Assembly (NCBI GenBank): GCA_020974905.1
Contig: CP087563.1
Span: 4,154,001 to 4,218,000 of the forward strand
Reading direction: 5' to 3'
From: Planctomycetes bacterium syqfu
GTDB lineage: Bacteria > Planctomycetota > Phycisphaerae > Phycisphaerales > Phycisphaeraceae
Length of the DNA stretch: 64,000 nucleotides
The position numbers and the translations under genes are program-made. The notes under the pieces are model-generated. The model had not been told where the DNA came from. It saw only the letters and a program-made list of their open reading frames with translations, and searched no databases. This document shows positions 14,908 to 34,987 of this stretch, one piece after another; within the stretch, counting starts at the first letter, position 1; every line of letters begins with the position of its first letter.

Positions 14908-14910
14908 GGT

Positions 14911-17689: not shown

Positions 17690-17717
17690 GATGATGCTGA
17701 CTCCTGTTGTTGAGGAA

Positions 17718-17740
17718 GGTTTCACGCTATCCGTGAAACC
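17718..17740 (-). other. Intercistronic hairpin after the major tail protein gene
   Basis: Perfect nine-base inverted repeat (GGTTTCACG and CGTGAAACC) with a five-base loop, 14 bases after the tail tube stop codon. No T-run follows on either strand, so it is more likely a message-stabilising or processing element than a terminator. It could explain high expression of the upstream major tail gene relative to downstream genes. Confidence 0.5.
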
Positions 17741-17753
17741 GTGAAATTCTGAA

Positions 17754-18653: not shown

Positions 18654-18671
18654 CTTGATGCTCCTCTATGT

Positions 18672-19169: not shown

Positions 19170-19179
19170 GGTGGCTTAC

Positions 19180-19713
19180 CTAAATTCCTTCCCACACAAA
19201 GACCATTTCGCCGACAAGCTCATCGCCTTCATTGAAAACATCTTCAACTTTGCTTCGCTCGATTTTGCCGATGTAGTCGGTCTTGAAGTCCAGACGATCC
19301 GCTTGATTAACCTGCAATTCGATATCACGCATGATCTGCCCGAGCAGGTTTTCCATCCGTGTGCTGATTTCATTGATGTCCGTCTTGATCTCATCGGGGA
19401 TGGTCCAATAGATCAACAAAGTCAAGATGCCCATTCGATTAAATCCGCCATCAGTTTCCTGTGTGGATATATAACCCGAATGTCCCTCATCCAGATTCAC
19501 GGCGATCACCGCACAAGGCCGTATGTCCAAACATTCAGCCAACGTATGAGCCACACCATCAGCGGGGATCGGCCAAGCACTGTTGTGGATGCGTGCTGAT
19601 GCTTCGGTCGCGTTGGCTGCACCGACAAACGCCTGAAACGTCGCGGAGTTGGCCAGCGAGTTTTTCAAGTTGGCTTTGGACAGGCTCAATGATCCAGCAG
19701 GCGCAGTGCTCAT
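19180..19713 (-). CDS. Tail terminator-like protein, 177 aa
   Basis: A 177-residue alpha/beta protein in the slot between head-tail connector genes and the tail tube gene. The pattern D-G-V-A-H-T-L, I-R-P-C-A-V-I-A-V-N, a central hydrophobic strand (L-T-L-L-I-Y-W-T-I-P), a helical stretch (I-S-T-R-M-E-N-L-L-G-Q-I-M-R-D-I) and a final strand (E-M-V-F-V-W-E-G) fits the tail-terminator fold class, which caps the tube at the head end. The ATG overlaps the stop of the neighbour at 19710 by four bases. The family is inferred from position and secondary structure. Confidence 0.5.
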   Translation of the reverse strand: MSTAPAGSLSLSKANLKNSLANSATFQAFVGAANATEASARIHNSAWPIPADGVAHTLAECLDIRPCAVIAVNLDEGHSGYISTQETDGGFNRMGILTLLIYWTIPDEIKTDINEISTRMENLLGQIMRDIELQVNQADRLDFKTDYIGKIERSKVEDVFNEGDELVGEMVFVWEGI

Positions 19714-19952
19714 GGGGTATTGACCCCCATCTGTGTTTCAAGTTTGGTCAGTCGATTGTCATTGTTTCGTTGATCATCGCGCTGGCGATCATCAATCTTG
19801 CTGATCTGTTTTTTCAAATCGGTGATAGCAACGGTCATTGCATCAATGGAGACGCTAACACGCGCGAAGCTCCAAACGACTGAAACAGTGAGGATGACAG
19901 CAGTGACAATCATGCCTGCCGTGCGTTGGGTAATGTTGGTATTGCCGGACAT
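19710..19952 (-). CDS. Small membrane protein with coiled-coil tail, 80 aa
   Basis: One membrane helix at about residues 12-31 (A-G-M-I-V-T-A-V-I-L-T-V-S-V-V-W-S-F) is followed by a charged coiled coil (A-I-T-D-L-K-K-Q-I-S-K-I-D-D-R-Q). It is coupled at both ends to structural genes. Small single-span proteins of this type inside phage head/tail operons can be holin- or spanin-like, but a structural-gene location makes lysis only one possibility. Confidence 0.5.
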   Translation of the reverse strand: MSGNTNITQRTAGMIVTAVILTVSVVWSFARVSVSIDAMTVAITDLKKQISKIDDRQRDDQRNNDNRLTKLETQMGVNTP

Positions 19953-19955
19953 GGC

Positions 19956-20309
19956 TTACTTTCTACCGCGATAGGCTGGTGATCCGACCTGTTCAGTGGG
20001 TTTGCGGGTCAGGGTGATATGCCAGTCGTTGCCTTTGGGAATGGCCGTCACCACGCCCCAGGATTCACCGTTGACGATAAAACTGTGGTTGCGTGTGACC
20101 GATGCCAATTCATCAACCGAAACAAGCATGGAAGCATGACGCTGAATGCGAGTATCATCTTCACCGACAAGCTTTTCGGTTTTGTGTTCTTTAAAAATGC
20201 CAGTCACCGGGGTGTTGGTCGATCCATTGACATGCGTAAAGGTGTCGCCATGCGTCTGGTACAACACAGGCATTGCCATATTGGCCATGATTTCATCGTG
20301 CAGGCTCAT
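19956..20309 (-). CDS. Head-tail connector-like protein, 117 aa
   Basis: The start at 20309 is preferred over ATG 20351: GGGGA precedes it and the shorter product begins with M-S-L-H-D-E-I-M. The sequence resembles small head-tail joining proteins (Q-T-H-G-D-T-F-T-H-V-N-G-S, T-G-I-F-K-E-H, S-W-G-V-V-T-A-I-P-K-G-N-D-W-H-I-T-L). It lies just after the capsid gene in transcription order, where the connector is usually encoded. No better family name was recognised. Confidence 0.6.
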   Translation of the reverse strand: MSLHDEIMANMAMPVLYQTHGDTFTHVNGSTNTPVTGIFKEHKTEKLVGEDDTRIQRHASMLVSVDELASVTRNHSFIVNGESWGVVTAIPKGNDWHITLTRKPTEQVGSPAYRGRK

Positions 20310-20378
20310 CGTGATCCCCAATAGGTAAAAGCCTGGGCTGGCAAACCCCAACCAGCCCAGGCGATGACAGGCAGAAAC

Positions 20379-21383
20379 TCAGGCAGCGATATTGGTGAGC
20401 AGGTGGCCGGCACGCACATCGAAGATTTTGCGGACGAACTCGGTGCGGGCACGGATAATGCCGCCACGCACGCGCTCTTCGCGGTACTCTTCGACCGTGA
20501 TGCCGATCGTTTCATCCTCCGCCCCGGGCAGGACGGCGCCGTCCCCCGTCCAGACGATCGTGCGACCGATGCACGGTTCTTCGCTTTCGATGTCATCATC
20601 TGTGGCGATGCGACACACCATGGCCATATTGGTGGCCCAGATGTGCTCGAGTACAGCTTTCTGGCCACGATCAGCGGTGTTCTTCTTGGCATCGTCGGCA
20701 ATGATGATGTGATCAAGCTGCAAGGCGATCGCCAACGCGGCGGTTGCCTCGGCCAGTGCCTTGGGGTCTTCGTGACCCGAGAACTTCACAAGGCTCTCGA
20801 CCCGTTCGGTACGGATCATGTTGCGGAAGGCGCGAGAGGACAGAACCAGGGCATTGGCGGCATAGCCGCAATTGTCGCTGACCTTATCCTTGGCTTTGTC
20901 GACATCATCAAACGGGTCTGCAGTCGCTCGCGTCGACCAGGGCACGCTGATGTTCGTGGTCAAATCCGCACCCGTCCACACGGTGGTATTGAACAGGTCG
21001 CCGGCAGCGCCGACTTCGTAGCAGCGGGCGACACGCGACACGGCACGATTGCGCTTCTTCTGCTCGGCACGCAGTTCGTCACCGTACAGAGCGATCTGGC
21101 GATCGTCGACCTTTTCTTCCGCGCCCTTTTCGCTGGTCGCGTAAGTGTCACTGTCCCATTCGAAGTCATCCCGGGCGTATGCACCTTCGGCATCACGGCT
21201 GAGGTCTTCTTCGGGCGGCATCACCGCTTCGGCGGGGAACTTGTTGAAGCTGGCGCTTTGAAGGCCAACTTCGGTCGGGCGGAACACTTTCAGCCCGATG
21301 TACTTCTTCTCGTTCATACGGGCATCGAATTCGTTGTAGCTCAACGAAAGGTCATGCCGCACGATTGCATTTTTGGGTTGCAT
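20379..21383 (-). CDS. Major capsid protein, 334 aa
   Basis: A 334-residue acidic, soluble protein with no signal peptide, of the size of lambda-type and related major capsid proteins. It contains P-T-E-V-G-L-Q-S-A-S-F-N-K-F, then the helical G-A-E-E-K-V-D-D-R-Q-I-A-L-Y-G-D-E-L, a central N-A-L-V-L-S-S-R-A-F-R-N-M-I, and an end strand R-T-E-F-V-R-K-I-F-D-V. These match the layout (E-loop, spine helix, A-domain) of HK97-fold capsid proteins only in general terms. It directly follows the decoration gene and the protease/scaffold gene in transcription order, exactly where the capsid gene is expected. Confidence 0.8.
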   Translation of the reverse strand: MQPKNAIVRHDLSLSYNEFDARMNEKKYIGLKVFRPTEVGLQSASFNKFPAEAVMPPEEDLSRDAEGAYARDDFEWDSDTYATSEKGAEEKVDDRQIALYGDELRAEQKKRNRAVSRVARCYEVGAAGDLFNTTVWTGADLTTNISVPWSTRATADPFDDVDKAKDKVSDNCGYAANALVLSSRAFRNMIRTERVESLVKFSGHEDPKALAEATAALAIALQLDHIIIADDAKKNTADRGQKAVLEHIWATNMAMVCRIATDDDIESEEPCIGRTIVWTGDGAVLPGAEDETIGITVEEYREERVRGGIIRARTEFVRKIFDVRAGHLLTNIAA

Positions 21384-21448
21384 GGTTGTTTACCTTTTTG
21401 GTTGGTATGTGAATGAAGTAAGAACACTCACGGCTCGTGTGCGGCCGA

Positions 21449-22141
21449 TTACGCTTCGAATGTCCAGGTTCCGACAACGGACTTGAGCGACCATTCCCCG
21501 GCTTTGGTGCACTCGATGTACAGGGTTTCGCCATCAGCATCGGCGACGAGATACTTGCCACCGGTGCCCGGTACGCCAGTCGCGGGGGTCGGCAGTTTCT
21601 CCGTGCCGGCGGGATCCACACGGAGTTCCTGGGCAGCGCCGACGCGGAAACCGAAATTCAAACCCGGGAGAGCGGCGGGGAGTGTGCCAACGACGGTACC
21701 AGTAGCGCCGACGGTGGTAATCGTCTTACCGGAGTCGGCAGCCGTGAGGGTGAAATCTTCGGTCTTGGCTTCGACCGTGGTGATGGACGGGCCATCGGTG
21801 AGGACCAGAACGTCGACATAGGAGCCATCACCGGAGACGGTGTTGGTTGCCTTGCCGATGTAACGGCTGTTGGGCGTCGAACTGACCTTGCCGCCTGCAG
21901 CACCGTAAACCTTGTCACCCTTCGTGATCGCGGCGCTGGCGGTAAACCGCATGATGCAGCGACCATTGAGGGGGATGACGGTCAAACCGTCGCCCTGCGC
22001 GTGGGCCCGGCTGGGATTGATACCGAGTTCGACCGCTTCGGCCCCGGCTGCCGCAAGCTGGCCATTCTCGTCATAGTCCAGACGCAGATAGGGAGCCAAC
22101 GCACCAGAAGCGGTCCCGTTGAGATTGCTTTTAACTTCCAT
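21449..22141 (-). CDS. Capsid decoration protein, 230 aa
   Basis: A 230-residue, Gly/Ala/Thr-rich protein between the protease and the major capsid gene. Residues about 60-115 (C-I-M-R-F-T-A-S-A-A-I-T-K-G-D-K-V-Y-G-A-A-G-G-K-V, then R-Y-I-G-K-A) match the DUF2190/lambda gpD-like decoration pattern. A second beta domain with a T-L-T-A-A-D-S-G-K-T-I motif and an Ig-like end follow. The product probably coats or stabilises the capsid. The order protease, decoration, capsid is the same as in lambda (C/Nu3, D, E). Confidence 0.65.
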   Translation of the reverse strand: MEVKSNLNGTASGALAPYLRLDYDENGQLAAAGAEAVELGINPSRAHAQGDGLTVIPLNGRCIMRFTASAAITKGDKVYGAAGGKVSSTPNSRYIGKATNTVSGDGSYVDVLVLTDGPSITTVEAKTEDFTLTAADSGKTITTVGATGTVVGTLPAALPGLNFGFRVGAAQELRVDPAGTEKLPTPATGVPGTGGKYLVADADGETLYIECTKAGEWSLKSVVGTWTFEA

Positions 22142-22204
22142 GGCTAATGCCTTTCAGTTGGATTGGTTAATGGATAGTGTTGAATGGGACGCGGTGTGTT
22201 GCGG

Positions 22205-22690
22205 TTATTCGCTCAACTCGTCGTCGAGTTTTTCCTCGATCTTGCGGCGAGCACCCTTGCCCTTGTTGCAGGAGATGAGGTAGTTCTTGTACAGCGCTGG
22301 ATCGGCCTTCTTGGCTGCATAGATGGCGCGGTCACGGCTCAAACCGCTGGCGACCTTCTTGGCGACCAAGGCAAGAAAGTCTTCCTTGGCGTCGCCAGTA
22401 CCCTCGGTGTTTTCGTCGGTCAGTGTGCCGTTGCCTTCACCGATCGGCAGGTTCGTTCGCGGCTTGCCGCCGTTCTTCTGGGCGTTGGCCAGAGCCTCGG
22501 CGTGAGCAGTCTGCTCATCCTTGATCTGCTTGTCGCGGGCAGCAATGCGGGCCTGCAGGGTTTCAGCCCATGCAGCTTGAATTTCTTCGAGGGTCGCATC
22601 GGCTTCCTGCTGGTCCATGATGAACTGAGCGTCGTCGGGCTTGCTACGATCCAGGCCCTTGCACGCATTCAAAATCTCTTTGAGCGTCAT
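22205..22690 (-). CDS. Nested scaffolding protein (Nu3-like internal start), 161 aa
   Basis: In frame within the protease gene, an ATG at 22690 (Met228 of the long product) is preceded by a perfect AGGAGG with an eight-base spacer. Initiation there would give a 161-residue, Ala/Glu/Lys-rich helical protein (M-T-L-K-E-I-L-N-A-C) with a basic C-terminus (K-G-K-G-A-R-R-K-I-E-E-K), like scaffolds that bind capsid subunits. Lambda Nu3 is made the same way from within gene C. The ribosome-binding site is seen directly; actual internal initiation is inference. Confidence 0.65.
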   Translation of the reverse strand: MTLKEILNACKGLDRSKPDDAQFIMDQQEADATLEEIQAAWAETLQARIAARDKQIKDEQTAHAEALANAQKNGGKPRTNLPIGEGNGTLTDENTEGTGDAKEDFLALVAKKVASGLSRDRAIYAAKKADPALYKNYLISCNKGKGARRKIEEKLDDELSE

Positions 22691-23371
22691 GGTGATATCC
22701 TCCTGTTGGCCCGAAACGCTTGCGGGCTTGGATTGGGTTGATTGGGCAGTCTGTTGCTGATCGGGTTCCGATTCGGCTGCCTGTTCAGTGAGATAGACAG
22801 CGGCCACCTTGACCGCTGGTGTGATTTCGTCGACGAAGCCGTTATCCATGGCTTCGGCAGCAGTGAAAAACGTGGTGTCATTCATCCACTGCTCGATCGT
22901 TGCCAGTGGCTTGCCCGTGCGTTGGGCGTAGATGCCAGCCAGCTGCTTATCGGTTTGCTTTAGTTGCTCAACTGTTTTGGTGACATCGTTTTTGTCACCC
23001 CAAGCAATCGTGCTAGCATTGTGGATCATCAATTTGGCGTTGGATGAAATCTTGATCGTATTGGCTGCCATAGCGATGACTGAGGCCATGGAGTAGGCAT
23101 AACCGGTGATGTGGGCTGTGACATGAGCCGGATGATTGAGTAATGCACCATAAATCGCCAGGCCCTCATCAACGCTCCCGCCATTGCTGGTAATGTGAAC
23201 ATCAATGTTTTGAGCGTCTTTGTGGTCCAGCAACTGCGTGATCACGCTCTTAGCACTGGTGTCTTCATTCCATGGATCGATGGTGTCCAATATGCGAATC
23301 TCCAACCGGCTCGGGTCGGCCTGGTTGAGGATGTAGTCAGTATTGATTTTTGGGGACATTCTCTTAGCCAT
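22205..23371 (-). CDS. Capsid maturation protease of the ClpP/S49 fold with C-terminal scaffold domain
   Basis: The start at 23371 (AGGAGC nine bases upstream) overlaps the portal stop by eight bases. Residues 1-190 are a ClpP-like serine protease: I-T-S-N-G-G-S near 61, catalytic Ser94 in G-Y-A-Y-S-M-A-S, His117 in L-M-I-H-N-A-S and Asp165 in M-N-D-T-T-F-F. Residues about 200-225 are a Gln/Ser linker. The rest is charged and helical, as in scaffolding proteins. An in-frame AGGAGG plus ATG inside the gene (start 22690) would make the scaffold alone, as lambda C/Nu3 does. The protease cleaves scaffold and prohead proteins during capsid maturation. Confidence 0.85.
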   Translation of the reverse strand: MAKRMSPKINTDYILNQADPSRLEIRILDTIDPWNEDTSAKSVITQLLDHKDAQNIDVHITSNGGSVDEGLAIYGALLNHPAHVTAHITGYAYSMASVIAMAANTIKISSNAKLMIHNASTIAWGDKNDVTKTVEQLKQTDKQLAGIYAQRTGKPLATIEQWMNDTTFFTAAEAMDNGFVDEITPAVKVAAVYLTEQAAESEPDQQQTAQSTQSKPASVSGQQEDITMTLKEILNACKGLDRSKPDDAQFIMDQQEADATLEEIQAAWAETLQARIAARDKQIKDEQTAHAEALANAQKNGGKPRTNLPIGEGNGTLTDENTEGTGDAKEDFLALVAKKVASGLSRDRAIYAAKKADPALYKNYLISCNKGKGARRKIEEKLDDELSE

Positions 23372-24983
23372 TGGTCTGCGCTCCTGAATTGGCACCACCT
23401 GGCAATTGCTTGCTTTGGCGGACGTAGAATGAATTGGGATCGTGCTTGGGTGACAGGAACAGCAAATCCTTCCAATCGACGGGAACACCTGTTTCCTCGT
23501 AGATCAGCTTTGCCTCATTGATGGCGTCTCGAATGAATGCGCTGTTGTCGCGGATGATGGCGGCGCGGACGTCGTCGACTTCCAAACCTCGATCGCCATA
23601 GATCTGGCTCAATGGGGACAGCAGGTTTTCACGCTTGGTCTTATCAGCGTTGGCGTCTTTGGAGGGCTCGATGTAATCCCAACCCGGCCACTTCCACTTA
23701 TGGCGAAAGATCGCATCGCCAAGTCGTTTGTATGCATTGCGTAGAATGCTGTCGGAGTCGACCAGGCGACGCATGTGCCACAGATGGACAGGCGTGAGCC
23801 ACTGCTGTTCAGTCACGCGCTTGCGGTTGTGCTTGCATTGCTTGCGTGACGAATCGGTGGCTCCGCGATAACCGGAGAAGTTGGTTTCGGATGCATCCAG
23901 CAACACTTGGACCAATGACAATCCAAGAGTGACGCAAATCTCCTGCAAAATCAGCCGCATGTGCTGGAAGAATGAATCACCTGGGACATTGGGGCTGAAA
24001 CCCTGTAGTTCCTCCCCATCATGGAGTTGGATCATCATGCCTGGGCCAACCTGTTGAATCAGGCGGTCAAATGTGGTCCCGTCCGGATTCTTTTCAGTGG
24101 TGGAGTACTGACCATCGGTCGGGAATCCAGCCATGCCCTTTTTGCGGATGCCCATCGCAAAAAATGAAACCGTCTGCTGTTTGACCAGGTTGGCGAATTC
24201 AATGTCGCCCCCCATCCCGATCAGGCTAAACACCCGAGTGAATGGAGACACACCGCGCATTTGTGTAACACGGTCGATGTTATAGACATGCAGGAGATTG
24301 GGATTGCCGTCATCATCGATCGCGTCAATCGAGTTCATGTCACTGACGCGAATGTTGCGGGTCATGCCCGGGTCGCCGGTAAACCAATAGCGGATGGGTT
24401 TGCGGAACTTGTCGATCTCAACGCCATGGACACACTTGCCGATACGGCTGCTCTTGTATGCCCACGTCGGGCTGCGTAGCCGATCAGCCTCAAGCAACTC
24501 GACGGTACCATCGCGGCTGCCGCCTTTGTCGTCGATCATGTTGGCGCAGATATCGCCATCACGCAGAACCGATCGGCGGACAAAGTAGGTTTGATCCAGG
24601 AAGTTCATGCGACCCTGAACGTCGCATTTTGTTTTGTCGGCAGCACGTTCCTCGTGCTTTTCCTTGATCCGCTTGTCGACGTCTTTGTCGCCTGTATCGG
24701 GATCAAGGGTTGGACCAACGCCGATTTCCTGCTCACATGCCAGATCAAGCAAACGCGGCAAGATGAATCCATTGCGTTCTTCATCTCGGATCTGCTCGAT
24801 ATTTTTGAAGAACAGATGCTCACTGGAATAATGCGAGTCCCCTGAACCACCGAGGCCAGTCCGACGTCGGTTGTACCGCGTATCAACTGGCGCGTTGTAG
24901 TCGTTGCGCATCCCCTGGACATAACGGTCCCGCATATCCAGCATCGTGTCATGCACGGCCGTGATTTCGGTGGACTTGCTCAA
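23364..24983 (-). CDS. Portal protein, lambda family, 539 aa
   Basis: A 539-residue protein of the usual lambda-type portal length. It shows the family's layout: N-terminal Y-N-A-P-V-D-T-R-Y-N-R-R, then F-V-R-R-S-V-L-R-D-G-D-I, V-E-L-L-E-A-D-R-L, and a C-terminal part with V-L-L-D-A-S-E-T-N-F-S-G-Y-R-G-A and P-V-H-L-W-H-M. It forms the dodecameric ring at the capsid vertex through which DNA enters. Its start overlaps the stop of the 102-aa gene by four bases (ATGA) and its end overlaps the protease start. Confidence 0.85.
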   Translation of the reverse strand: MSKSTEITAVHDTMLDMRDRYVQGMRNDYNAPVDTRYNRRRTGLGGSGDSHYSSEHLFFKNIEQIRDEERNGFILPRLLDLACEQEIGVGPTLDPDTGDKDVDKRIKEKHEERAADKTKCDVQGRMNFLDQTYFVRRSVLRDGDICANMIDDKGGSRDGTVELLEADRLRSPTWAYKSSRIGKCVHGVEIDKFRKPIRYWFTGDPGMTRNIRVSDMNSIDAIDDDGNPNLLHVYNIDRVTQMRGVSPFTRVFSLIGMGGDIEFANLVKQQTVSFFAMGIRKKGMAGFPTDGQYSTTEKNPDGTTFDRLIQQVGPGMMIQLHDGEELQGFSPNVPGDSFFQHMRLILQEICVTLGLSLVQVLLDASETNFSGYRGATDSSRKQCKHNRKRVTEQQWLTPVHLWHMRRLVDSDSILRNAYKRLGDAIFRHKWKWPGWDYIEPSKDANADKTKRENLLSPLSQIYGDRGLEVDDVRAAIIRDNSAFIRDAINEAKLIYEETGVPVDWKDLLFLSPKHDPNSFYVRQSKQLPGGANSGAQTNG

Positions 24984-25288
24984 CCGCGTGCCTCCCGAAA
25001 ATCAGGAAACACAACACAGGATGATTGATTGGAACCGAATGACGGATCGTTGTCTTTAAGCCAAGCGAGTGCGGTTTTCTTCTCGCCTTCGATTAACGCC
25101 AGATTGAATTCGCTGCGTGACTTTTCGCTCTCACTTACCGTGGGCAGGCTGATGATGATGTCGCGGCAGGCAACAACAAATGCCCGGGCCTTGGTGATGG
25201 AACCGGTCAGGTCATAATCATTGTTGGCGTGATATGCAGCCTTGGCTGTGCTAAAGTCGCTCGACATAAGAGCAATGTAGCGCGGCAA
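24980..25288 (-). CDS. Small head protein in the gpW position, 102 aa
   Basis: A 102-residue helical protein that lies exactly where lambda places gpW, just before the portal. The sequence (S-S-D-F-S-T-A-K-A-A-Y-H-A, then A-R-A-F-V-V-A-C-R-D-I-I, and S-R-S-E-F-N-L-A-L-I-E-G-E-K-K) is compatible with a small head-completion protein but shows no decisive family signature. Its stop overlaps the portal start by four bases. Function inferred from position. Confidence 0.55.
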   Translation of the reverse strand: MPRYIALMSSDFSTAKAAYHANNDYDLTGSITKARAFVVACRDIIISLPTVSESEKSRSEFNLALIEGEKKTALAWLKDNDPSFGSNQSSCVVFPDFREARG

Positions 25289-25301
25289 AGACTATTTTTG
25301 G

Positions 25302-25355
25302 GCGCCGGACATCCCGGACATCCCGGACGGCCCGGACGCTCCGGACGGCCCGGAC
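25302..25355. repeat. Six tandem 9-bp units NNNCCGGAC
   Basis: Six adjacent 9-bp units share the core CCGGAC with three variable leading bases (GCG, ATC, ATC, GGC, GCT, GGC). The array stands in the non-coding gap between the 125-aa gene and the gpW-like gene, about 14 bases upstream of the latter's start. Two similar units occur near the right end of the prophage (about 33086-33104). The array could be a protein-binding iteron or packaging-type site, or a recombination scar at the edge of inserted genes. No function is assigned. Confidence 0.65.
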
Positions 25356-25399
25356 GGAGGGCTAATTTTCGTGTTTTTGGCATGGTATTTGCATGTGAT

Positions 25400-25777
25400 T
25401 CAAGACGCAGTTGGCACCATTTTGCCAAGGTGATTGTCTATCTTCTCATACATACCTGGATACCACCCGCTGGAAATATACTTAAACCATCCTTCGCGGA
25501 TCTCAAGATTTTCAAGGTTGGTTGCCCACACGCTGTTGGGAATGGTTGTTTCATTCACTTCAAGTAAATGCTCACGCCCAAGGCCATCAGGAGTCTCGGC
25601 ACGTATCAACAGCCAACCCCCCTCAAGAATGAAGATCGCGTGTGCATACAGAAGTTGGTCGACGGAAAAGTATTCTTTGCACTGATTCCAAACGTCCACA
25701 AGCACATCGCGTTCGCCTTCGCCGGTGAATTCCGTTGCCCGACATTGATTTGATTTCAAAATATGCATGACTGTCAT
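25400..25777 (-). CDS. Hypothetical protein, 125 aa
   Basis: A 125-residue acidic protein with D-V-L-V-D-V-W-N-Q-C-K-E-Y-F and W-L-L-I-R-A-E-T-P-D-G-L. Its ATG overlaps the stop of the methyltransferase gene by four bases, so the two are coupled and belong to one inserted block. There is no signal peptide or membrane span, and no recognisable domain. A partner role for the methyltransferase is possible but not shown. Confidence 0.55.
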   Translation of the reverse strand: MTVMHILKSNQCRATEFTGEGERDVLVDVWNQCKEYFSVDQLLYAHAIFILEGGWLLIRAETPDGLGREHLLEVNETTIPNSVWATNLENLEIREGWFKYISSGWYPGMYEKIDNHLGKMVPTAS

Positions 25778-27033
25778 CCTTTTAAAATCTTGGCCTTTTT
25801 ACCTGTAAATTCTTCCCACCGGCGCACAATGACGTCGCAATATCGAGGGTCAAGTTCCACTGTCCTGGCAATGCGGCCGGACTGCTCGCAAGCAATTACC
25901 GTTGTACCGCTGCCGCAAAATAGGTCCAGCACAATGCCACCGACCGGGCAGCTATTTTGAATTTGGTATTCAAACAGAGCGACCGGCTTCATGGTCGGAT
26001 GGTCTTCACTGCGTGTTGGTCGATCGAAATCTAAAACCGTGGTCTGGCTTCTGTCACTGCCCCAATGATGCCCCGCGCCACCCTTCCAACCATACAGACA
26101 TGGCTCGTGTTTCCAGTGATAGTCCTGCCGCCCCATGACCAGGCTGTTCTTGTTCCAGATCAAACACTGGCGGATCTGCCATCCAATATCGTGTGCAGCA
26201 CCGCGGAAGTTGTAGCCTTCTGAGTCAGCGTGCCAAATGTAAAAGACAGCGCCCTGCCTCATCACTGCATCGGCTGTCGTGTACACATCGCGGAGGAACT
26301 GCCGGAAATCATCGTCGCTCATTTCATCGTTTTGGATGGTCAAAGCATCAGCGGTCTTCCCTGTGTAGGCCACGTTATACGGCGGATCCGTCAACAGCAT
26401 GTCCGCCTGTTTGCCTGCCATCATTTTCTGGACCGCGGTGATGTCTTTGCTGTCAGCACACATCACCCGATGCTTACCGAGCACCCAGATATCACCAGGC
26501 TTGGTGATGGGCTTCTTGGGCACGATCGGTATTTCATCTGGATCCGTCAAACCATCGTTGCCGACCCCGTCGACGTCCAGAGCCTGGGCAACCAACTCGG
26601 TGATATCATCGTCGCTAAATCCCGTAAGCAGGTGATCAATATCAACATCTTCCTGCAGTCTCTTGAGTTGTTTGGCCAGACGCTTCTCATCAAACACGGA
26701 CAGATCGGTTGTACGGTTATCCGCAATTGCGTAGGCAGTGGCATTGTTACCGGTCAATCGCGATTTAACGACTGCGATGTATTCCCACCCCAATTCAAGC
26801 GCAGCAGACAGCGTGCCGTTGCCGGCGATGACCCGACCTTCCTCATTGATGACGATCGGTTTCTGCTGCCCAAAGCCTTGCAATGATTGCATGATCGCCT
26901 CGAGATTATCCGCATCATGCTCGCGGACGTTTTCCGGATCGTGAACCAGATCCTTGATGTCCATCACCAGCGGGTAAAGCCAAGGCTCGATGTATGTGGG
27001 GCGAGGCCCTTTGGCGGTCGACTTACGTGGCAT
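25774..27033 (-). CDS. ParB-like domain fused to a beta-class DNA methyltransferase, 419 aa
   Basis: The start at 27033 is chosen over the ATG at 27144; the product then begins M-P-R-K-S-T-A-K-G. Residues about 30-130 are a ParB/Srx-like domain (I-K-D-L-V-H-D-P-E-N-V-R, then G-R-V-I-A-G-N-G-T). The C-terminal part is a DNA amino-methyltransferase: catalytic D-P-P-Y (motif IV) precedes the SAM-binding D-L-F-C-G-S-G-T-T (motif I), the order of the beta class (N6-adenine or N4-cytosine). It likely modifies phage DNA against restriction, or regulates it. It sits between terminase and portal genes, an unusual place inside a head module. Confidence 0.85.
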   Translation of the reverse strand: MPRKSTAKGPRPTYIEPWLYPLVMDIKDLVHDPENVREHDADNLEAIMQSLQGFGQQKPIVINEEGRVIAGNGTLSAALELGWEYIAVVKSRLTGNNATAYAIADNRTTDLSVFDEKRLAKQLKRLQEDVDIDHLLTGFSDDDITELVAQALDVDGVGNDGLTDPDEIPIVPKKPITKPGDIWVLGKHRVMCADSKDITAVQKMMAGKQADMLLTDPPYNVAYTGKTADALTIQNDEMSDDDFRQFLRDVYTTADAVMRQGAVFYIWHADSEGYNFRGAAHDIGWQIRQCLIWNKNSLVMGRQDYHWKHEPCLYGWKGGAGHHWGSDRSQTTVLDFDRPTRSEDHPTMKPVALFEYQIQNSCPVGGIVLDLFCGSGTTVIACEQSGRIARTVELDPRYCDVIVRRWEEFTGKKAKILKG

Positions 27034-27373
27034 CGGCTGGCCCTTCGACGTGAATGGTGATTTGCTCAAAAAACCAACGCACAGCATCGGCACCGTTTTG
27101 AACATACTTGCCATTTTCAAGCTGGGCTGGTGCACCACCACCATCGAGAGCCAACACCAAACGACGCATGCCGCGACGTTGACGCTGGGTCATATGGTTG
27201 GCTTCCACATGCTTGGCGTTTGCAATGACATCACCTGCCGGCAACTCTGCCGGCAAGTTGAGGACAAATGCTTCGGGGGTAGACTCGATGTCAGCGTCGA
27301 TCCCGAGGACAGGCCCTTTGGGGTGTTCTTGGTCTGCCTGATTGTTTTGATTCTTTTTTGGTGTACGGGCCAT
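27023..27373 (-). CDS. Hypothetical phage protein, 116 aa
   Basis: A 116-residue protein with a basic start (M-A-R-T-P-K-K-N-Q), an acidic middle and a Met/Arg-rich stretch (H-M-T-Q-R-Q-R-R-G-M-R-R) followed by a short beta-helical end. Its stop overlaps the methyltransferase start by 11 bases, and it begins 12 bases after the terminase stop. No known motif. It may be part of the inserted block with the methyltransferase. Confidence 0.6.
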   Translation of the reverse strand: MARTPKKNQNNQADQEHPKGPVLGIDADIESTPEAFVLNLPAELPAGDVIANAKHVEANHMTQRQRRGMRRLVLALDGGGAPAQLENGKYVQNGADAVRWFFEQITIHVEGPADAT

Positions 27374-27385
27374 GAAGATGTTCCT

Positions 27386-29427
27386 TTATCTGTTGTTGGC
27401 GAAATATTCCCTGCCATCCGGGGTCTTGGGAGTTTGTAAGAATTGCGTGGTTGCAGAGGCGCGGTGCTGTTCTTTTTTCAGCTTGTACCACTGCGGGAGA
27501 GACGGAATAAGATGCACACCCGTCAGGTATGCAGCGACGATCTGATAGCCTTCACAGTCGCGGTAGTCATGACGTGCGCCATCCTTCACAGGACACCAAC
27601 GCTCGACCAGCTTCCCGTCAACCTTGTCCATCATTTTGTGAAGGTTGGTCATCTGGCGATTGTAGGTGTCGTCGTTGGCCTGGTTGAGTCCCCATTGTTG
27701 GAAATCGTCACGCTCTTCACCGGTGAATGGATCGATGATCTTGATTTGCGTGTTGATCATCCGATCGAGCATGTCCTGGGCTTGGTTGGAGTCCACCATC
27801 AAAAGGCGGATCTCCTGTCGGCGGGATGCGTTTTGTGCATGAGGGTTGTGAATGCCCCGTCCGAACCAGTGCAGATCCCTGGTGTCACGTGGCTTTGACG
27901 CACCTTTGAGCGGGATCACCTGGGCTGGATAGTTGAGAGTGTAGGCATAAACCTCCTGCGTGCGGGTGCTCGATTCCTCGTTGACATCAGTCCTGGTACC
28001 ACCCGAGTCGATGAGCATGAGCATGGGGCGGATCGCCGGCAGCCAACCGGATTGGTATGGCCAGCTTCGACACATCAAATCAGTCAAGTCCTTGAATGTC
28101 TGGACATTGCCGTGCCAGACACGACGTGAAACCATGTGCGATCCCCACGCGCGGAGCGTGCCGTAGAAGTGGTCCTGCTGCGTGTCGACCGTCAGTAGGA
28201 TGCGATCGGTCCAGTCGGGCAGCAATGCTTCCGGCGTTTCCGCGGTCTTGGACAGAATCTCAAACGTGTTGAGCGTGATCTGGGCATGCGTGATATCGGC
28301 ATCCTCGCCCAGGTCACCGGTCCTGAACTCAAACATGGCGAGCGGGTCATTGATGGCACGCAGGTAGGTGGCCGCAATGCTTGATATCGTGACGCGTTCC
28401 CACATCCAGTACAAAGACGAAATATGCATCCCGACGCGAGTTTCGTTGGGGAATGCTTCAATCTCCATGGCGTCCTCGATGACACCATCGGCAAACACCT
28501 TGTTGTCCGGATCCACCGTCATCCACTTGCCTTCGCGGATCAGCTTGCGACGCATGCGATCGTCGATGTGCTGTTCACACGCGGGGCATTGGTAATGGGC
28601 AGCCTGGGTTTGATTGCAGATCTTGGCGGCTTCGTTGTTGTCCGCCATCTTGAGCAGTTCATCAGGGATGATGACATTATCAAAGACCAGGCGTTGCCAC
28701 TTACCACATCCGGGGCACCTGACGCAGAAATACAGTTTGACGTCCGACGCTTCAAAGTTGACGCTGATCACCCCAGCGCTGGTCGTTGGCGATGAAATCA
28801 AAATGTGGATGGCATCGGGGTACGTGGTCAGTCGACGATCGGTAAGCTCAACGGGGGACGCTTCCTTGCCTGCCCACTCTTCGAACTTGTTTGTTTCGTC
28901 ACTGACCGCGCGTTTCATCGGGTTGGACGCCAGCGACGCCGGGCTGCCCGACCACATGAGATACATCAGAAAGTTGTTGGCGAGACGTATTTCCCCCTTT
29001 GGTGAAAAGCTTGATGACGGGAGTCGGAAAAACGCTTGTTGCGAACGATCTGCTCGCCTTTTTCTTTGTTGGGCAGCACCAGGCCCACCGGCGACGGATC
29101 CATCATGGCCCAATAGCCCATGACGTTGCGGATGGCGTCGGAGATACCGCCCTGTACGCCCTTCTTGAGCGAGACGTAACGCACCCCTTGCTTGATGCTC
29201 ATGTCCATGATGCCGACCAGGTACGGCGCGTTGGCATTGCTCCACGGGCCAGCTAAAGCAGCTTCATCCTCCTGGAGGATGCGGTAACGTTCTGCCCACT
29301 CGGACGGGAGCATGTCCTCGGGGATGCGCAACGCATCGGATTCTCGTTGCGAGAAGTCTGTCTGCGGAACCTTGACGGTGCAGCCGGGGAACAACTCGAT
29401 CTCAATTTCCCGCACATTCTCAACCAT
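27386..29427 (-). pseudogene. terL: Terminase large subunit (GpA family) with a -1 frameshift
   Basis: The N-terminal part (start 29427, overlapping the small subunit stop by eight bases) reads K-K-G-V-Q-G-G-I-S-D-A with P-V-G-L-V-L-P-N in one frame to about 29030. The remaining about 540 residues, with S-G-S-P-A-S-L-A-S-N-P, a D-E acidic pair, V-R-C-P-G-C-G-K-W, and the nuclease half, follow in the -1 frame to 27386. The frame changes at an A-run (29028-29032; T-run on the coding strand). One extra T would restore a full ATPase-nuclease. The enzyme cuts and packages DNA into proheads. A point indel, an assembly error or recoding are all possible. Confidence 0.75.
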
Positions 29428-29947
29428 CGCCGGTTCCCCGATCATCAGGACCGTTAATGCGATCGCACAGATTGCGGAAAGCAGTGACGAGCATCTTTTC
29501 GATTTTGTGGGGATCATCCTCATCAGCCAGATGCTGCCGAAGAGACTTTGCTGCACGCACCAGACCGATGCGGATGGATGTGTTGTTCTTAATGGTCTTG
29601 GCTTCATATTCCTGGCGATGGACCAATTCCTTCTGCAGGACCAGACGCTCAATCTCAAGCTTCTGCTTTCGCTCCTGGAGTACGCTGATCTGCGCCGCGG
29701 TCTTTGCGATTTGCAGCTTCTGGGGACTGGTTTGAGATTGAGAGGATCCTGCAAGTTGAGCATTGGGATTTGGAGCCAACGTGTCAGAACGCCACGCATC
29801 CACTTCGCGCACATTCCAAGGGCCCTTCCTGCCGAATGGCCAGGAAGGTTTGCGAACCCAAAGGCTGACCGTTTTGCCTGAGACCTTGAGTGCTCGGGCA
29901 AGTTCGGCTTGGGTATTTGCTGTTTGACCTGTTGACTTCCGTGCCAC
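29420..29947 (-). CDS. terS: Terminase small subunit-like DNA-binding protein, 175 aa
   Basis: GTG start at 29947. The N-terminus is a helix-turn-helix (T-Q-A-E-L-A-R-A-L-K-V-S-G-K-T-V-S-L-W-V), followed by a Trp-rich basic stretch (K-P-S-W-P-F-G-R-K-G-P-W), as in lambda Nu1-type and related small subunits. A long charged coiled coil occupies residues about 75-125 (Q-I-S-V-L-Q-E-R-K-Q-K-L-E). The product would recognise the packaging site and recruit the large subunit, with which its gene overlaps by eight bases. Confidence 0.75.
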   Translation of the reverse strand: MARKSTGQTANTQAELARALKVSGKTVSLWVRKPSWPFGRKGPWNVREVDAWRSDTLAPNPNAQLAGSSQSQTSPQKLQIAKTAAQISVLQERKQKLEIERLVLQKELVHRQEYEAKTIKNNTSIRIGLVRAAKSLRQHLADEDDPHKIEKMLVTAFRNLCDRINGPDDRGTGDG

Positions 29948-30085
29948 ATTGTTTCACACTTAAGAGTGCCCGTTACCTCGTTACCCCAAAATTTTGAAAA
30001 CTGAATCCGCGCAAACGGCTCGAAAAAAAAACTGCGACCGGCGGGTGCGCCCCAGGAGGAACCAAGGCCCTCGAAAAATAGGGGT

Positions 30086-30700
30086 TTACGTGCGGTTTTG
30101 AGGCGGCTCAGACGCGCGTAAGTCTTTATTTTTACGTGGGTTTTGCTGGTCGTTTTTGCTGCCATCCGTCATGAATGTGACGATAGGTGGTGCCCAGATA
30201 CCAGGCCGTTTAAACACTCCACTGTGCCCTCGGGCTAGCGGGTAACAGTCTAGATTGGTGATGCGACGATCATTGCCAAGGTAACCATACCGTCCCATTG
30301 CGCCCCATGGTGAGAACAGCAGCCACTGAGCGAACCAGACAGGCCAGTCTTTTCGGTTGTACAACACCAAGGCAGACTCGAGCGCATCGCCAAACTTCGT
30401 GTCAACATCCAAAGCAGGATTGATCAACACCGCTTTGAACTTCGGTACATCCATGAACGATATACGACGCACCAGATCCGCACCGTTTGAATGAGCGATG
30501 ATGCCACTGGCCGGTTCAAGACAACCGGCCAGGATACTGGCCAAGTTGTCATTGAACAGGCGGACACCTAGCAAGCCGATCCATCCATAGTCAGGGCTAT
30601 GGACTGTCATGCCTGCGTGCTCAAGTAACGGCGCAAACACATCGACGGACGCACGCCCACCGTCACGCACATTGAAACCATGAACAAGATAGACGTGCAT
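30086..30700 (-). CDS. Alpha/beta-hydrolase-fold protein, 204 aa
   Basis: A 204-residue protein with an N-terminal V-Y-L-V-H-G-F-N that matches the oxyanion strand motif HGF, a nucleophile elbow I-I-A-H-S-N-G-A (Ser in place of the usual G-x-S-x-G layout), and a final L-A-R-G-H-S-G that may carry the catalytic His. No signal peptide. It lies three bases after the lipoprotein gene, between early genes and terminase. A cell-envelope esterase or a lysis-related lipase is plausible. Alternatives are a phage regulatory hydrolase or a bacterial cargo gene. Confidence 0.65.
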   Translation of the reverse strand: MHVYLVHGFNVRDGGRASVDVFAPLLEHAGMTVHSPDYGWIGLLGVRLFNDNLASILAGCLEPASGIIAHSNGADLVRRISFMDVPKFKAVLINPALDVDTKFGDALESALVLYNRKDWPVWFAQWLLFSPWGAMGRYGYLGNDRRITNLDCYPLARGHSGVFKRPGIWAPPIVTFMTDGSKNDQQNPRKNKDLRASEPPQNRT

Positions 30701-30702
30701 GA

Positions 30703-31329
30703 TTACTCGTCCGTCTTGGTTTCGGTGTCGTTGGTAGTTTCGGTTTGCACACCATCGGAGGACGTGTCAGTCTTGGTTTCAGCGTTTGACTCAGACCCGA
30801 TATTGACATCAGGTGTCATACCATCGCTAACAGTCTTAACGACGTCAGAAGCTGTATTGCCAATCACCTTAGCGACTTCTTTGCGTGCCTCGTCACCAGA
30901 CAATGCCATGTCCTTGGTGTTTTCTTGGGCGCCCGTCACCTGCTCATCAGCCGCTGCAATGACGTCACTGACACGTATGGTGATTTCTTCCGCTTCAAAC
31001 ATGGGGTTGCCTGCATCAGGTTGAGGTGTGTACTTCACGTTCTTGAGCACGGCATCCTTGGCAAGCAATCCCCTAAGCTGGCCTGTGGCTGTGTCCATGT
31101 TGACATAACTAACCTTGCCAGCGGTGGTGATGTGAAGATCATCATCAACCACCTGGACAGGGTTTTCGTTGGCCATCGTCACGCCGGAACCATCATCATT
31201 GCGAATGGACGACACATTGGACGTACTCGCCTTGATGGCGTCTTTATCCAGGCTGACATGGTTGGGAGTTTGGCAGCCAAAGAACATGGCCACGACGATG
31301 ACGAGCAAGGCAGAGAGAGCAGTGCGCAT
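30703..31329 (-). CDS. Probable lipoprotein, 208 aa
   Basis: Residues 1-19 are a lipoprotein-type signal (M-R-T-A-L-S-A-L-L-V-I-V-V-A-M-F-F-G) with Cys at the lipobox position. The mature part is polar, with a Q-V-T-G-A-Q-E-N centre, and ends in a Thr/Glu/Asp-rich tail (T-E-T-T-N-D-T-E-T-K). It is three bases before the alpha/beta-hydrolase gene, so the two are coupled. Lipoproteins next to lysis genes can be outer-membrane spanins, but no matching inner-membrane partner was found; cargo is an alternative. Confidence 0.65.
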   Translation of the reverse strand: MRTALSALLVIVVAMFFGCQTPNHVSLDKDAIKASTSNVSSIRNDDGSGVTMANENPVQVVDDDLHITTAGKVSYVNMDTATGQLRGLLAKDAVLKNVKYTPQPDAGNPMFEAEEITIRVSDVIAAADEQVTGAQENTKDMALSGDEARKEVAKVIGNTASDVVKTVSDGMTPDVNIGSESNAETKTDTSSDGVQTETTNDTETKTDE

Positions 31330-31457
31330 TATAAACGCTCCTATGCATCGGCTGCATTGGAGCGGATCATCATTTAATCAAGCACACCTGAAGGATAACC
31401 GTTCGTGATTTATGAAACAAGACCTGACAGCATAAATGCGCATGATTTTGCGCACAT

Positions 31458-31763
31458 TCAATTGCAAGCACAGTCATTGAAGTATGTTGCTTTCATACGA
31501 TCGCCTTCAATGACCGTGACCAATTCCCTGTCAATCTTGTGGCCGTGTAGAAATGCGGCTTTGACGACACCGTCGATCATCTGCTCTTTGCTGGCGTCAT
31601 TGGGTACGCCAATTGATGGGTCAACAATCTCTACGCCATCTGAAAATCTGACGCAGGATTGATAGCCGCTTTTGATCAGAGGGTTGTATCCTTCACCTTC
31701 TGGCTCGTCGCTCCAATAGACGGAGACCTCAACAACCACGCCATCATCCATGTCATCGTTCAT
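31458..31763 (-). CDS. Hypothetical phage protein, 101 aa
   Basis: A 101-residue acidic protein (N-terminal M-N-D-D-M-D-D-G-V-V-V-E-V-S-V-Y-W) whose start lies four bases after the stop of the 101-residue HTH-like gene. The C-terminal part has H-G-H-K-I-D-R-E-L-V-T-V-I and two Cys at the end (D-C-A-C-N). Small, soluble, without known domain. It is probably part of the early cluster near the right prophage end. Confidence 0.55.
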   Translation of the reverse strand: MNDDMDDGVVVEVSVYWSDEPEGEGYNPLIKSGYQSCVRFSDGVEIVDPSIGVPNDASKEQMIDGVVKAAFLHGHKIDRELVTVIEGDRMKATYFNDCACN

Positions 31764-31767
31764 TTAT

Positions 31768-32073
31768 TCACTCTGCAAAAAGATCGTCAATATTTTTCTC
31801 GGCCAATTCTATAGCCCTACGGTAGACCTCAGATTCATCGACCTGCATGTCCTTCGCGGCCTGCTGGTAGCGTTTGCGGGTTTGGGTGGTCAGACGAACC
31901 ATGACCTGCTCGGTCAAGCGTGGGGGTTTATACGGTTTGATACCGGCCTGTCGATGCATGCGGTAGATGCTGCTGGCCGGGATGCCGGTTTGCTCGGCAA
32001 TCTCGGCGACGGTGGCTTTACCCATCATCCGTTTGACAATCGCTTCGAGCTTAATTGTGATTTTCGGCGGCAT
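31768..32073 (-). CDS. Helix-turn-helix DNA-binding protein (resolvase/sigma-like HTH), 101 aa
   Basis: The start at 32073 is chosen for a GGAG five to six bases upstream, giving M-P-P-K-I-T-I-K-L-E. Residues about 15-45 (G-K-A-T-V-A-E-I-A-E-Q-T-G-I-P-A-S-S-I-Y-R-M-H-R) form a helix-turn-helix of the Hin-recombinase type, followed by a basic stretch and a C-terminal helix with L-T-E-Q-V-M-V-R-L-T-T-Q-T-R. The small size argues for a regulator or DNA-binding accessory protein, not a recombinase. It overlaps the upstream 104-aa gene by 23 bases. Confidence 0.6.
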   Translation of the reverse strand: MPPKITIKLEAIVKRMMGKATVAEIAEQTGIPASSIYRMHRQAGIKPYKPPRLTEQVMVRLTTQTRKRYQQAAKDMQVDESEVYRRAIELAEKNIDDLFAE

Positions 32074-32365
32074 GATGACTCCGGCTGTAAACAGTGATGC
32101 ACGGTTCAAACGCAGCGTTTCGGATTGGGATTTCGGTTGGCATCTTGCCCATCTTTTTGAGTTGATTTAAAAACCAGCGAACCATCTCCGGCTTGACTGG
32201 TCCATCATCGTCGTCCGGGTCGGTTGCGGCAATCCGTTCATCGGCTGCCTTGCTCAAAATTTTTGCAACGCGCCCAGGGCAATCTGCGAAAGTTTCAAAT
32301 CGGCCGGCAACATGAAATCCAAACTCCGCAAACACCGCGTCAATCTCGCTCCATTGAATGTGCAT
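32051..32365 (-). CDS. Hypothetical phage protein, 104 aa
   Basis: A 104-residue protein (M-H-I-Q-W-S-E-I-D-A-V-F-A-E-F-G-F) with an acidic run (D-P-D-D-D-D-G-P) and a basic end (S-R-S-H-H-A-A). It starts just after the terminator at 32382-32419, so it needs its own promoter or read-through. No recognisable domain. It overlaps the downstream HTH gene. Function unknown. Confidence 0.55.
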   Translation of the reverse strand: MHIQWSEIDAVFAEFGFHVAGRFETFADCPGRVAKILSKAADERIAATDPDDDDGPVKPEMVRWFLNQLKKMGKMPTEIPIRNAAFEPCITVYSRSHHAAENHN

Positions 32366-32381
32366 TTGACATCCCCGTTAT

Positions 32382-32419
32382 AAAAAAGACGCCCGCCCGC
32401 CGAAGCGGGACGGGACGCC
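32382..32419 (-). terminator. Rho-independent terminator after the 158-aa gene
   Basis: On the minus strand GGCGTCCCGTCCCGC is joined by a TTCG tetraloop to GCGGGCGGGCGTC and followed by TTTTTT. It lies eight bases past the stop of the 158-aa gene. The TTCG loop is also found in the terminator at 3176-3213, a shared style within this prophage. Confidence 0.8.
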
Positions 32420-32427
32420 GAAGTAAG

Positions 32428-32904
32428 TCAGCGGGACAGGTACTCGGCGAGTTCTTTTTCATCGTAGCCGCCAATACGTTTACCTGTGTTATCATTTTCA
32501 ATCCAAATCCAAGCGCCGTCCATCTCGTGGTACTTTTCGAGCAATTCATTTGCGGTGTCACATTTGTTGTCAAACTTGGCAGCAGCTTCATCAAAACTCT
32601 GTGCCTCAATCACCTGGGATTCGGAGTCCGTGGTGATGGTGTACATGTCAGTGTCAATGTCGATCTCAATGCAGCCACCATCCTCAGGCATGTACATGGC
32701 ATCGCATCCATTGATTTTAAATCCAATCTCCCAAGCCAATGCCTCAATGGCCTCCTCGAGTTGTGTGCGAGTTGCATTGGCGGGCAGGACGGGGTTGGTG
32801 AGTTCGCCACTATCGTTCCGGAAATTGCCATCGGTATAGGTGTAAGCCCAACCTTCGTTATTACGATCCTGCGTGTCCCAATAAATCTTGATTTGCGTTG
32901 ACAT
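32428..32904 (-). CDS. Hypothetical phage protein, 158 aa, acidic
   Basis: A 158-residue acidic protein with S-T-Q-I-K-I-Y-W-D-T-Q-D-R at the start, and a repeated pattern of Asp/Glu with aromatic residues. It is monocistronic: its own promoter (32965-32992) with an overlapping inverted repeat on one side and a strong terminator on the other. The rightmost prophage gene, regulated independently, is a good position for a lysogenic-conversion or immunity function, but the sequence gives no domain clue. Confidence 0.6.
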   Translation of the reverse strand: MSTQIKIYWDTQDRNNEGWAYTYTDGNFRNDSGELTNPVLPANATRTQLEEAIEALAWEIGFKINGCDAMYMPEDGGCIEIDIDTDMYTITTDSESQVIEAQSFDEAAAKFDNKCDTANELLEKYHEMDGAWIWIENDNTGKRIGGYDEKELAEYLSR

Positions 32905-32964
32905 TTTGCTGTTCCTTACTTCAGCGGTTTTGCGTCTGCGAGCCTCATTGGCTCATCTGTCTAT

Positions 32965-32992
32965 ATCATAGGCTGCTGATAATTTTTGTCAA
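32965..32992 (-). promoter_or_regulatory. Sigma70-type promoter TTGACA-16-TATGAT
   Basis: On the minus strand a perfect -35 (TTGACA, 32992-32987) lies 16 bases from TATGAT (32970-32965), about 60 bases before the start of the 158-aa gene. The core resembles the regulatory promoter at 3483-3510. Confidence 0.7.
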
Positions 32993-33005
32993 CTATTTAT
33001 TATCA
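32977..33005. promoter_or_regulatory. Inverted repeat TGATAAT-N15-ATTATCA over the promoter
   Basis: Seven-base perfect arms (32977-32983 and 32999-33005) flank and overlap the -35 of the promoter at 32965-32992. The placement fits a repressor operator. Its sequence differs from the CGTTATTGCGTTG-type operator at 3513-3543, so two different repressors may be involved. Confidence 0.45.
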
Positions 33006-33221
33006 AAACATGGAATATTAATTGTAATAATCTCGCACGGTTTTTGGCAGTCAGTCCAAACACATGAGAATGCGATGTCACAATGTCCGGGACACCCGGA
33101 CACACATGCCTCGTCATTGCCGGCGAACGCCGTAAGTAATCTGGCACGCTGCGCAGCCCATCACACTTTGCGCAACACTTTTAGAAAAAAATCAAAATTC
33201 CCCGTGTATATGAACTTTTCA
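33006..33221. other. Non-coding right end of the prophage
   Basis: No gene was found here. The segment holds a pair of CCGGGAC/CCGGAC-like units at about 33086-33104 that recall the 9-bp array at 25302-25355, a short GGCGTTCGCCGG-type hairpin at about 33119-33131, and AT-rich DNA next to the tRNA fragment. Confidence 0.4.
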
Positions 33222-33265
33222 GACGGATTTTAAGTCCGTCGCGTCTGCCAATTCCGCCATCGGGC
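33222..33265 (-). tRNA. 5' half of tRNA-Leu(TAA), truncated at the prophage junction
   Basis: On the minus strand GCCCGAT starts an acceptor stem, followed by the Leu-type D-arm (G-C-G-G-A-A-T-T-G-G-C-A-G-A-C-G-C in DNA letters) and a complete anticodon arm: stem GACGGA/TCCGTC around CTTAAAA with anticodon TAA. After the arm the sequence becomes AT-rich and has no variable arm, T-arm (GTTCGA) or acceptor 3' strand. The fragment therefore marks the host side of the prophage attachment site. Phages normally restore the tRNA at one end; the intact copy or missing 3' half should lie at the unseen left end. Confidence 0.75.
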
Positions 33266-33352
33266 CTCTTGGATGATCGGCTTGGATCAGCAGGTGAACA
33301 CTTTAGCAGATCAGTCTGTGTTTGTCCCGGCTTTGAATGCTGATTGTCATAA

Positions 33353-33886: not shown

Positions 33887-34987
33887 TTAACGATACCTGG
33901 CTAACCAGTGAGCATAAGGTGAGGGCAGGGTTGCCCAGGCGGCGTTGTCGACTTTGAGTTCCTTGGCAGCGTGGTACGGCCAATGGGGATCAGAGAGTAA
34001 GGGGCGCCCAAGTGTGACCAGATCAATCTTCTCCTGGCGGATGAGTTCGTCTGCTTCATGAGGTTGGGAGATGTACCAACTGGTGGTGCTCGGCAAGCCG
34101 GTTTGTTCGCGGATGTGCTGGGCGGTGTCTGCCATGAAATGCGGGCCCCAGGGAATCTGGGCGTCGGGCGTGTTAAAGCCCATGGACACATCAATGAAAT
34201 CCAGGCCTTCATCTTTGAGACGTTTGAGTAAATCAATCGCCTCAGCAACCATCTGTTCATCTTCGTCCTTACCTGCAAACTCGATGACACCAAGGCGGGC
34301 AGTCAACGGCAAGTGGTCGGGCCAGACTTTGCGGACTGCTTTAAATGTCTCAAACAGATAGCGGGCGCGATTTTCAGCATTGCCACCGTAACTGTCACTG
34401 CGGTGATTGGAGATGGGCGAGAAAAAGTTTTGCGCCAGGTACCCGTGAGCGTAATGCAACTGAAGCCACTCAAAACCCGCAGCCAAAGCACGCTCTGCAG
34501 CGCGGACGGTGTCAGCTTGAACCCGGGCGATATCCTCTACGGTCATCTCACGTGGAACGCGCGAAAGATTGGCACCAAAAGCAACCGGTGACGGGGCAAG
34601 GGTCTGCCAGGCGCGCGGGTCATCCGTTGCCATGTGATCATCACCCTCCCACGGTCGATTGGCAGAAGCCTTGCGGCCGGCATGACCAATCTGAATACCG
34701 GGGACTGCGCCATATTGCTTGATCTGGTAGACAATACCGCGAAGCCCATCAGCCTGCGTATCGTTCCAAAGCCCAAGGTCCGCCCAACTGATGCGTCCTT
34801 CGGGTGCGACCGCTGCTGCTTCGACGATGACCAATCCCGAGCCACCACGCGCCAGTGAAGAATAGTGAACCCGATGCCAATCGTTGATAACGCCGTCCTC
34901 TGCCATGTACTGACACATGGGTGAAACGACAATGCGATTGCGAAGGGTAACGTCTTTTAGTTTGTAGGAATCAAAGAGACCAGCCAT
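33887..34987 (-). CDS. NADH:flavin oxidoreductase, OYE family (YqjM-like)
   Basis: A 366-residue TIM-barrel flavoprotein. It carries the YqjM-type markers: S-P-M-C-Q-Y near residue 22, G-I-Q-I-G-H-A-G-R-K-A near 100, L-H-Y-A-H-G-Y-L with the following F-F-S-P-I-S-N-H-R-S-D-S-Y-G-G, and L-V-T-L-G-R-P-L-L near the end for FMN phosphate binding. It would reduce activated double bonds, quinones or electrophiles with NAD(P)H and FMN. It is divergent from an ArsR-type regulator with an operator between them, suggesting induction by reactive electrophiles or metals, as in the nemRA system (inference). Confidence 0.9.
   Translation of the reverse strand: MAGLFDSYKLKDVTLRNRIVVSPMCQYMAEDGVINDWHRVHYSSLARGGSGLVIVEAAAVAPEGRISWADLGLWNDTQADGLRGIVYQIKQYGAVPGIQIGHAGRKASANRPWEGDDHMATDDPRAWQTLAPSPVAFGANLSRVPREMTVEDIARVQADTVRAAERALAAGFEWLQLHYAHGYLAQNFFSPISNHRSDSYGGNAENRARYLFETFKAVRKVWPDHLPLTARLGVIEFAGKDEDEQMVAEAIDLLKRLKDEGLDFIDVSMGFNTPDAQIPWGPHFMADTAQHIREQTGLPSTTSWYISQPHEADELIRQEKIDLVTLGRPLLSDPHWPYHAAKELKVDNAAWATLPSPYAHWLARYR

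Follow-up and report, generated by a model that had tools for sequence, protein, structure and literature searches.

A planctomycete prophage in the anticodon arm of tRNA-Leu(TAA) that very probably restores the 5' half of the gene

The truncated tRNA-Leu(TAA) gene found in the analysed window of 64,000 nucleotides (G000:C1:4154001-4218000, from a genome consisting of a single contig of 7,376,598 bases) almost certainly marks the far end of a temperate phage that integrated in the anticodon arm and restored the 5' half of the tRNA gene via its attP. This reading is based on sequence, namely on both junctions, the rebuilt gene, an empty site in a related genome, repeats at both prophage ends and the integrase. 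The attP of anticodon-class tyrosine integrases usually carries the 3' half of the tRNA. Restoration of the 5' half is known as well but uncommon, and mirrors this arrangement, with the tRNA turned round relative to the integrase. The apparent paradox of an essential tRNA seemingly cut by a prophage is in this way resolved as the mirror-image form of a common process.

Minus-strand positions 33223-33266 of the window correspond to nucleotides 1-44 of tRNA-Leu(TAA) and are followed by non-tRNA DNA; including the one base preceding the tRNA, this stretch reads AGGCCCGATGGCGGAATTGGCAGACGCGACGGACTTAAAATCCGT (minus strand, 33267-33223). The truncated gene reported in the initial annotation at 33222-33265 is real, albeit placed there one base off. 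With the Rfam tRNA model only the D and anticodon arms are matched, at 18.8 bits versus a gathering score of 29, ARAGORN calls no tRNA in the window, and neither a T-arm nor an acceptor 3' strand, both of which, if adjacent, would have counted against the truncation according to the initial annotation, is present after the fragment. As all 44 nucleotides are identical to the complete tRNA-Leu(TAA) of the same genome and likewise to that of another species of the genus (G001), the fragment is, on this comparison, not a chance match. Together with 48 bp of host upstream DNA (33223-33314), it is identical to G001 at 92 of 92 positions, whereas the neighbouring host DNA is only about 87-91% identical; the scar is therefore undecayed and the prophage insertion looks recent. 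The host DNA originally upstream of the tRNA (33268..33314, minus strand), which in G001 precedes the intact tRNA, probably holds the original promoter, now feeding only the relic, i.e., the displaced 5' half (33223..33266, minus strand). Flanking the site is the host gene of an FMN oxidoreductase (33887..34987, minus strand; PF00724), which in G001 adjoins the uninterrupted tRNA. Between this gene and the relic is a stretch of about 570 bp (33315-33886), containing a 147-aa ORF, that shows no alignment to G001.

Extending the sequence leftward, as the initial annotation had proposed, leads to the other prophage end, where a complete tRNA-Leu(TAA) (G000:C1:4138066-4138152, minus strand), comprising the host 3' half, is found beside an integrase. 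This gene has the orientation of the fragment and lies 49,114 bp away, to the left of the window site, so that the order on the minus strand is host upstream DNA, 5' half, prophage, integrase, complete tRNA and host downstream DNA. Both junctions share a block of exactly 45 bp reaching from the tRNA 5' end to the end of the anticodon stem, i.e., the attachment core, one copy of which is at the host-upstream junction in the window (33223..33267, minus strand) and the other at the integrase-side junction. In G001 the site is uninterrupted, the two host flanks meeting at a single intact tRNA-Leu. Identity to G001 amounts to 87-89% for the right flank (FMN oxidoreductase side) and 91-92% for the left flank (LacI gene side), the matches of the two flanks overlap solely within the tRNA 5' half, and the G001 tRNA is identical to the rebuilt tRNA-Leu(TAA) at 87 of 87 nucleotides. 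A pattern search of the genome allowing up to three mismatches retrieves two copies only, the complete tRNA-Leu(TAA) and the window fragment, and with ARAGORN no second TAA is detected among the genome's other long-variable-arm tRNAs, the Leu anticodons there being CAA, AAG, TAG and CAG. The gene count suggested at the outset consequently yields one complete copy, and the rebuilt gene is the genome's sole tRNA-Leu(TAA). Among the explanations initially offered, the one assuming that the phage carries a new 5' half is borne out by the rebuilt tRNA beside the integrase 49.1 kb off, the 45-bp block at both ends and the empty site in G001.

Classical integration with restoration of the 3' half, the fragment resulting from a later rearrangement or a deletion of the 3' half, would agree with the 3' geometry of most integrase relatives, including a tRNA-Ser(TGA) case in the same genome, but is very improbable, as the integrase faces the tRNA 5' end and the fragment stops exactly at the block end. 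Moreover, the host 3' half, supposed to have been removed in the second of the initial alternatives, is present in the rebuilt gene and continuous with host DNA, and the empty site of G001, where both flanks meet, contradicts this course of events. Less credible still is tRNA-dependent lysogeny as described in mycobacteriophages (PMC10865867), where the target tRNA is lost on integration and its role falls to a cognate tRNA that the phage encodes separately. The prophage does have tRNA genes of its own, Glu-TTC and Met-CAT, but these are not Leu, the shared block comprises 45 bp and not about 10, and the tRNA-Leu(TAA) rebuilt at the junction refutes the scenario; with this gene as the only one for Leu(TAA), the initially considered destruction of the tRNA and service by another copy fails as well. 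The idea of an old tRNA relic that has nothing to do with the prophage, also raised in the initial annotation, is hardly tenable given the empty site in G001, for although tRNA fragments are common island scars, this one is undecayed, forms an exact junction and is accompanied by a matching arm repeat 43 bp away.

According to the preferred explanation, restoration of the 5' half from attP, a temperate tailed phage would have used its tyrosine integrase to enter the single tRNA-Leu(TAA) gene of the host at the anticodon arm, with an attP bearing a copy of the tRNA 5' half (nt 1-44). Crossover, presumably within the anticodon stem-loop, would have joined the phage 5' half to the host 3' half, giving a full-length tRNA next to the integrase, and the original host 5' half and its upstream DNA would have been displaced to the far prophage end, now seen as the window fragment. 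The tyrosine integrase (L034:2216-3544, minus strand, 442 aa; PF00589 at 4.3e-14, PHROG 1 at 4.1e-26) is encoded outside the window and inside the element. Its gene faces the tRNA 5' end, the stop codon being 64 bp ahead of the first base of the rebuilt tRNA, and an excisionase-like ORF with a weak match (1.4e-4) is found directly upstream of it. A 17-bp sequence, AGTGTTGCGCAAAGTGT, occurs once per phage arm, in the window at 33163..33179 (minus strand), 43 bp from the fragment, and at the integrase end about 130 bp from the core, as determined with the prophage ends joined in silico. A further partial copy is present, and none of 200 shuffles equalled the repeat. These repeats look like arm-type sites of the integrase.

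As the 5' half is displaced with its upstream DNA, the rebuilt tRNA is cut off from its own promoter and would be transcribed from phage DNA, either by read-through from the integrase gene or from a local promoter. Scanning directly upstream of the rebuilt tRNA, no sigma-70-like promoter was recognised, a −10-like match in this region being no better than in shuffles, and expression would therefore have to rely on read-through or on a promoter that escaped recognition. Since the integrase gene is co-directional and only 64 bp upstream of the tRNA, read-through is plausible. Transcription of the lysogen's only tRNA-Leu(TAA), and with it the decoding of UUA, should thus hinge on phage DNA. Among the 12 loci with this 5' geometry found in the family survey described below, the highest-scoring −10-like hexamer in the 50 bp upstream reaches a mean of 4.0 versus 2.2 in control windows (p 2.5e-5, with control windows unmatched in base composition), and in six of the 12, the present locus not among them, such a hexamer is positioned 13-17 bp from the tRNA. 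The lack of a recognised sigma-70-like promoter upstream of the rebuilt tRNA, along with a frame-split terminase gene, stands against the preferred explanation.

The window covers the right-hand part (1..33222) of the prophage, a 49.1-kb element at about G000:C1:4138109-4187222. The first prophage ORF inside the junction encodes 158 aa (32428..32904, minus strand) and is preceded by a promoter-like TTGACA-16-TATGAT at 32992-32965. Also on the minus strand are genes for the terminase large subunit (27386..30165; PHROG 15, Pfam GpA_ATPase and GpA_nuclease), a ParB-like/DNA methyltransferase protein (25774..27144), a portal protein of the lambda family (23364..24983), a ClpP-like head maturation protease (22205..23488) and the major head protein (20379..21383; PHROG 1005, 1.7e-33), and a scaffold protein and replication-like genes are likewise situated between the prophage ends. 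Near 29000-29040 the terminase passes from one reading frame (28966-30165) to another that overlaps it (27386-29245), which may reflect a defective prophage or an assembly indel; given this split, the phage may have lost its mobility. In addition, the prophage encodes tRNA-Glu(TTC) and tRNA-Met(CAT) side by side (L034:16825-16989, corresponding to G000:C1:4152825-4152989) and a phosphoadenosine phosphosulfate reductase-like protein (L034:8361-9293; PHROG 424, 5.9e-46).

In the Islander database, 159 of 3919 islands, found across prokaryotes, have a 5' tDNA fragment (PMC4383910). As in the case presented here, the tRNA gene is split by a tyrosine integrase of the anticodon-centred class, its 5' part is supplied anew by the island, and the 5' fragment is located upstream on the same strand. 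While the Islander type spans prokaryotes, the present example is from a planctomycete, with an integrase whose identity to the relatives found does not exceed about 39%; literature searches for such a case in planctomycetes did not find any. The archaeal plasmid pTN3 uses a tRNA-Leu gene's 5' half as attB, with a shared block of 41 bp and Leu2-44 as minimal segment (PMC5495485; reviewed in PMC8371274), and there too the full tRNA is rebuilt and parted from its original promoter. However, attP of pTN3 resides inside the integrase gene, which is disrupted on integration, whereas here the gene is whole and separate from the tRNA; the pTN3 host is archaeal and not bacterial, and the likeness is one of arrangement. 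Classical 3'-half integration has the enzyme family, the anticodon-arm target and the rebuilding of the gene at the integrase end in common with the present case, but duplicates the other tRNA half and leaves the host promoter with the gene, while here it is lost. Mycobacteriophage Fionnbharth also targets the anticodon region of a tRNA gene present in one copy, yet without rebuilding it; instead, a tRNA encoded separately by the phage takes over (PMC10865867).

For surveying the integrase family, relatives were collected from 400 genomes of the same order and from genome contigs with organism names. An alignment query gave 422 relatives, the best 80 of which were kept. Almost all of these bear the label Planctomycetota, with Phycisphaerae well represented, which makes a phycisphaeral planctomycete the most likely host of the present prophage; single-sequence integrase searches of viral contigs, genome contigs and phage records resulted in zero matches. 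After removal of duplicates, the integrase is faced by the tRNA 3' end at 95 loci and by the 5' end at 12, including the present one, with L085, L120 and L110 left out of the counts as ambiguous because the tRNA is too distant or on the other side. The 5' type accounts for 11% here versus 4.1% in Islander (159/3919), a difference (Fisher p 0.0017) that is indicative only, as sampling differs.

Eight other 5' loci were subjected to a genome search for the displaced fragment (L121, L189 and L203 being left out), and six of them show a 5' fragment of 43-49 nt. It is on the same strand upstream in G057 (49 nt, 41.5 kb), G400 (45 nt, 168 kb), G401 (44 nt, 9.6 kb), G402 (45 nt, 7.0 kb) and G403 (43 nt, 6.3 kb), and on another contig in G201 (44 nt). 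No displaced fragment was found in G371, an 82%-complete genome, and a further tRNA-Cys copy in G286 extends unbroken to the end of its T arm and is an ambiguous case. Arm repeats were sought at G403 and none found, G401 and G402 being left out of this comparison. As a 3' control from the same genome as the present prophage, tRNA-Ser(TGA) is flanked at the 3' end by an integrase relative, and a 3' fragment covering nt 28-88 lies at a distance of 9.4 kb. The ends of the 5' blocks and the starts of the 3' blocks fall in the same anticodon arm.

On the integrase tree, a quick one with long branches, clustering of the 5' type is not significant (five changes for six rows, with 74 of 500 shuffles as low), and the present integrase (L082) sits on a long branch with unsure placement. 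The 5'-type L094 at tRNA-Leu(TAA) is in a supported clade with the 3'-type L092, L100, L107 and L114, which have the same target. It appears somewhat more probable than the contrary that in this mostly planctomycete integrase family the restored tRNA half flipped repeatedly while the anticodon-arm target stayed constant. If true, the restored side would be an evolvable property of attP not fixed by the integrase, and every flip to the 5' type would need phage-supplied transcription of the tRNA. More interesting as a lead is the presence of both geometries in a single integrase family, subject to the quick tree with its long branches; as the two forms coexist there, even at a shared tRNA target, target-orientation switching could be put to a direct test.

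At the tRNA-Thr(TGT) of G057 (L177:2633-2705), fragments of both halves are present, the 5' one 41.5 kb upstream and the 3' one (nt 31-73) 7.4 kb downstream (G057:C1:4219676-4219724 and 4268642-4268684), and both halves of the present gene may derive from elements. The 5'-type element of G201 has a complete tRNA-Leu(TAA) at both junctions (L179:8115-8199 and L180:2516-2602), as if its attP had held a whole tRNA gene; a 23-bp repeat occurs in both arms, and the far junction, being on another contig, is linked by this repeat. In many 3'-type relatives (L103, L108, L123-L127, L130, L131, L133-L135, L137, L138, L140, L141 and others), the integrase ORF extends about 54-67 nt into the tRNA, which places attP in the 3' end of the integrase gene, so that integration would alter the protein tail.
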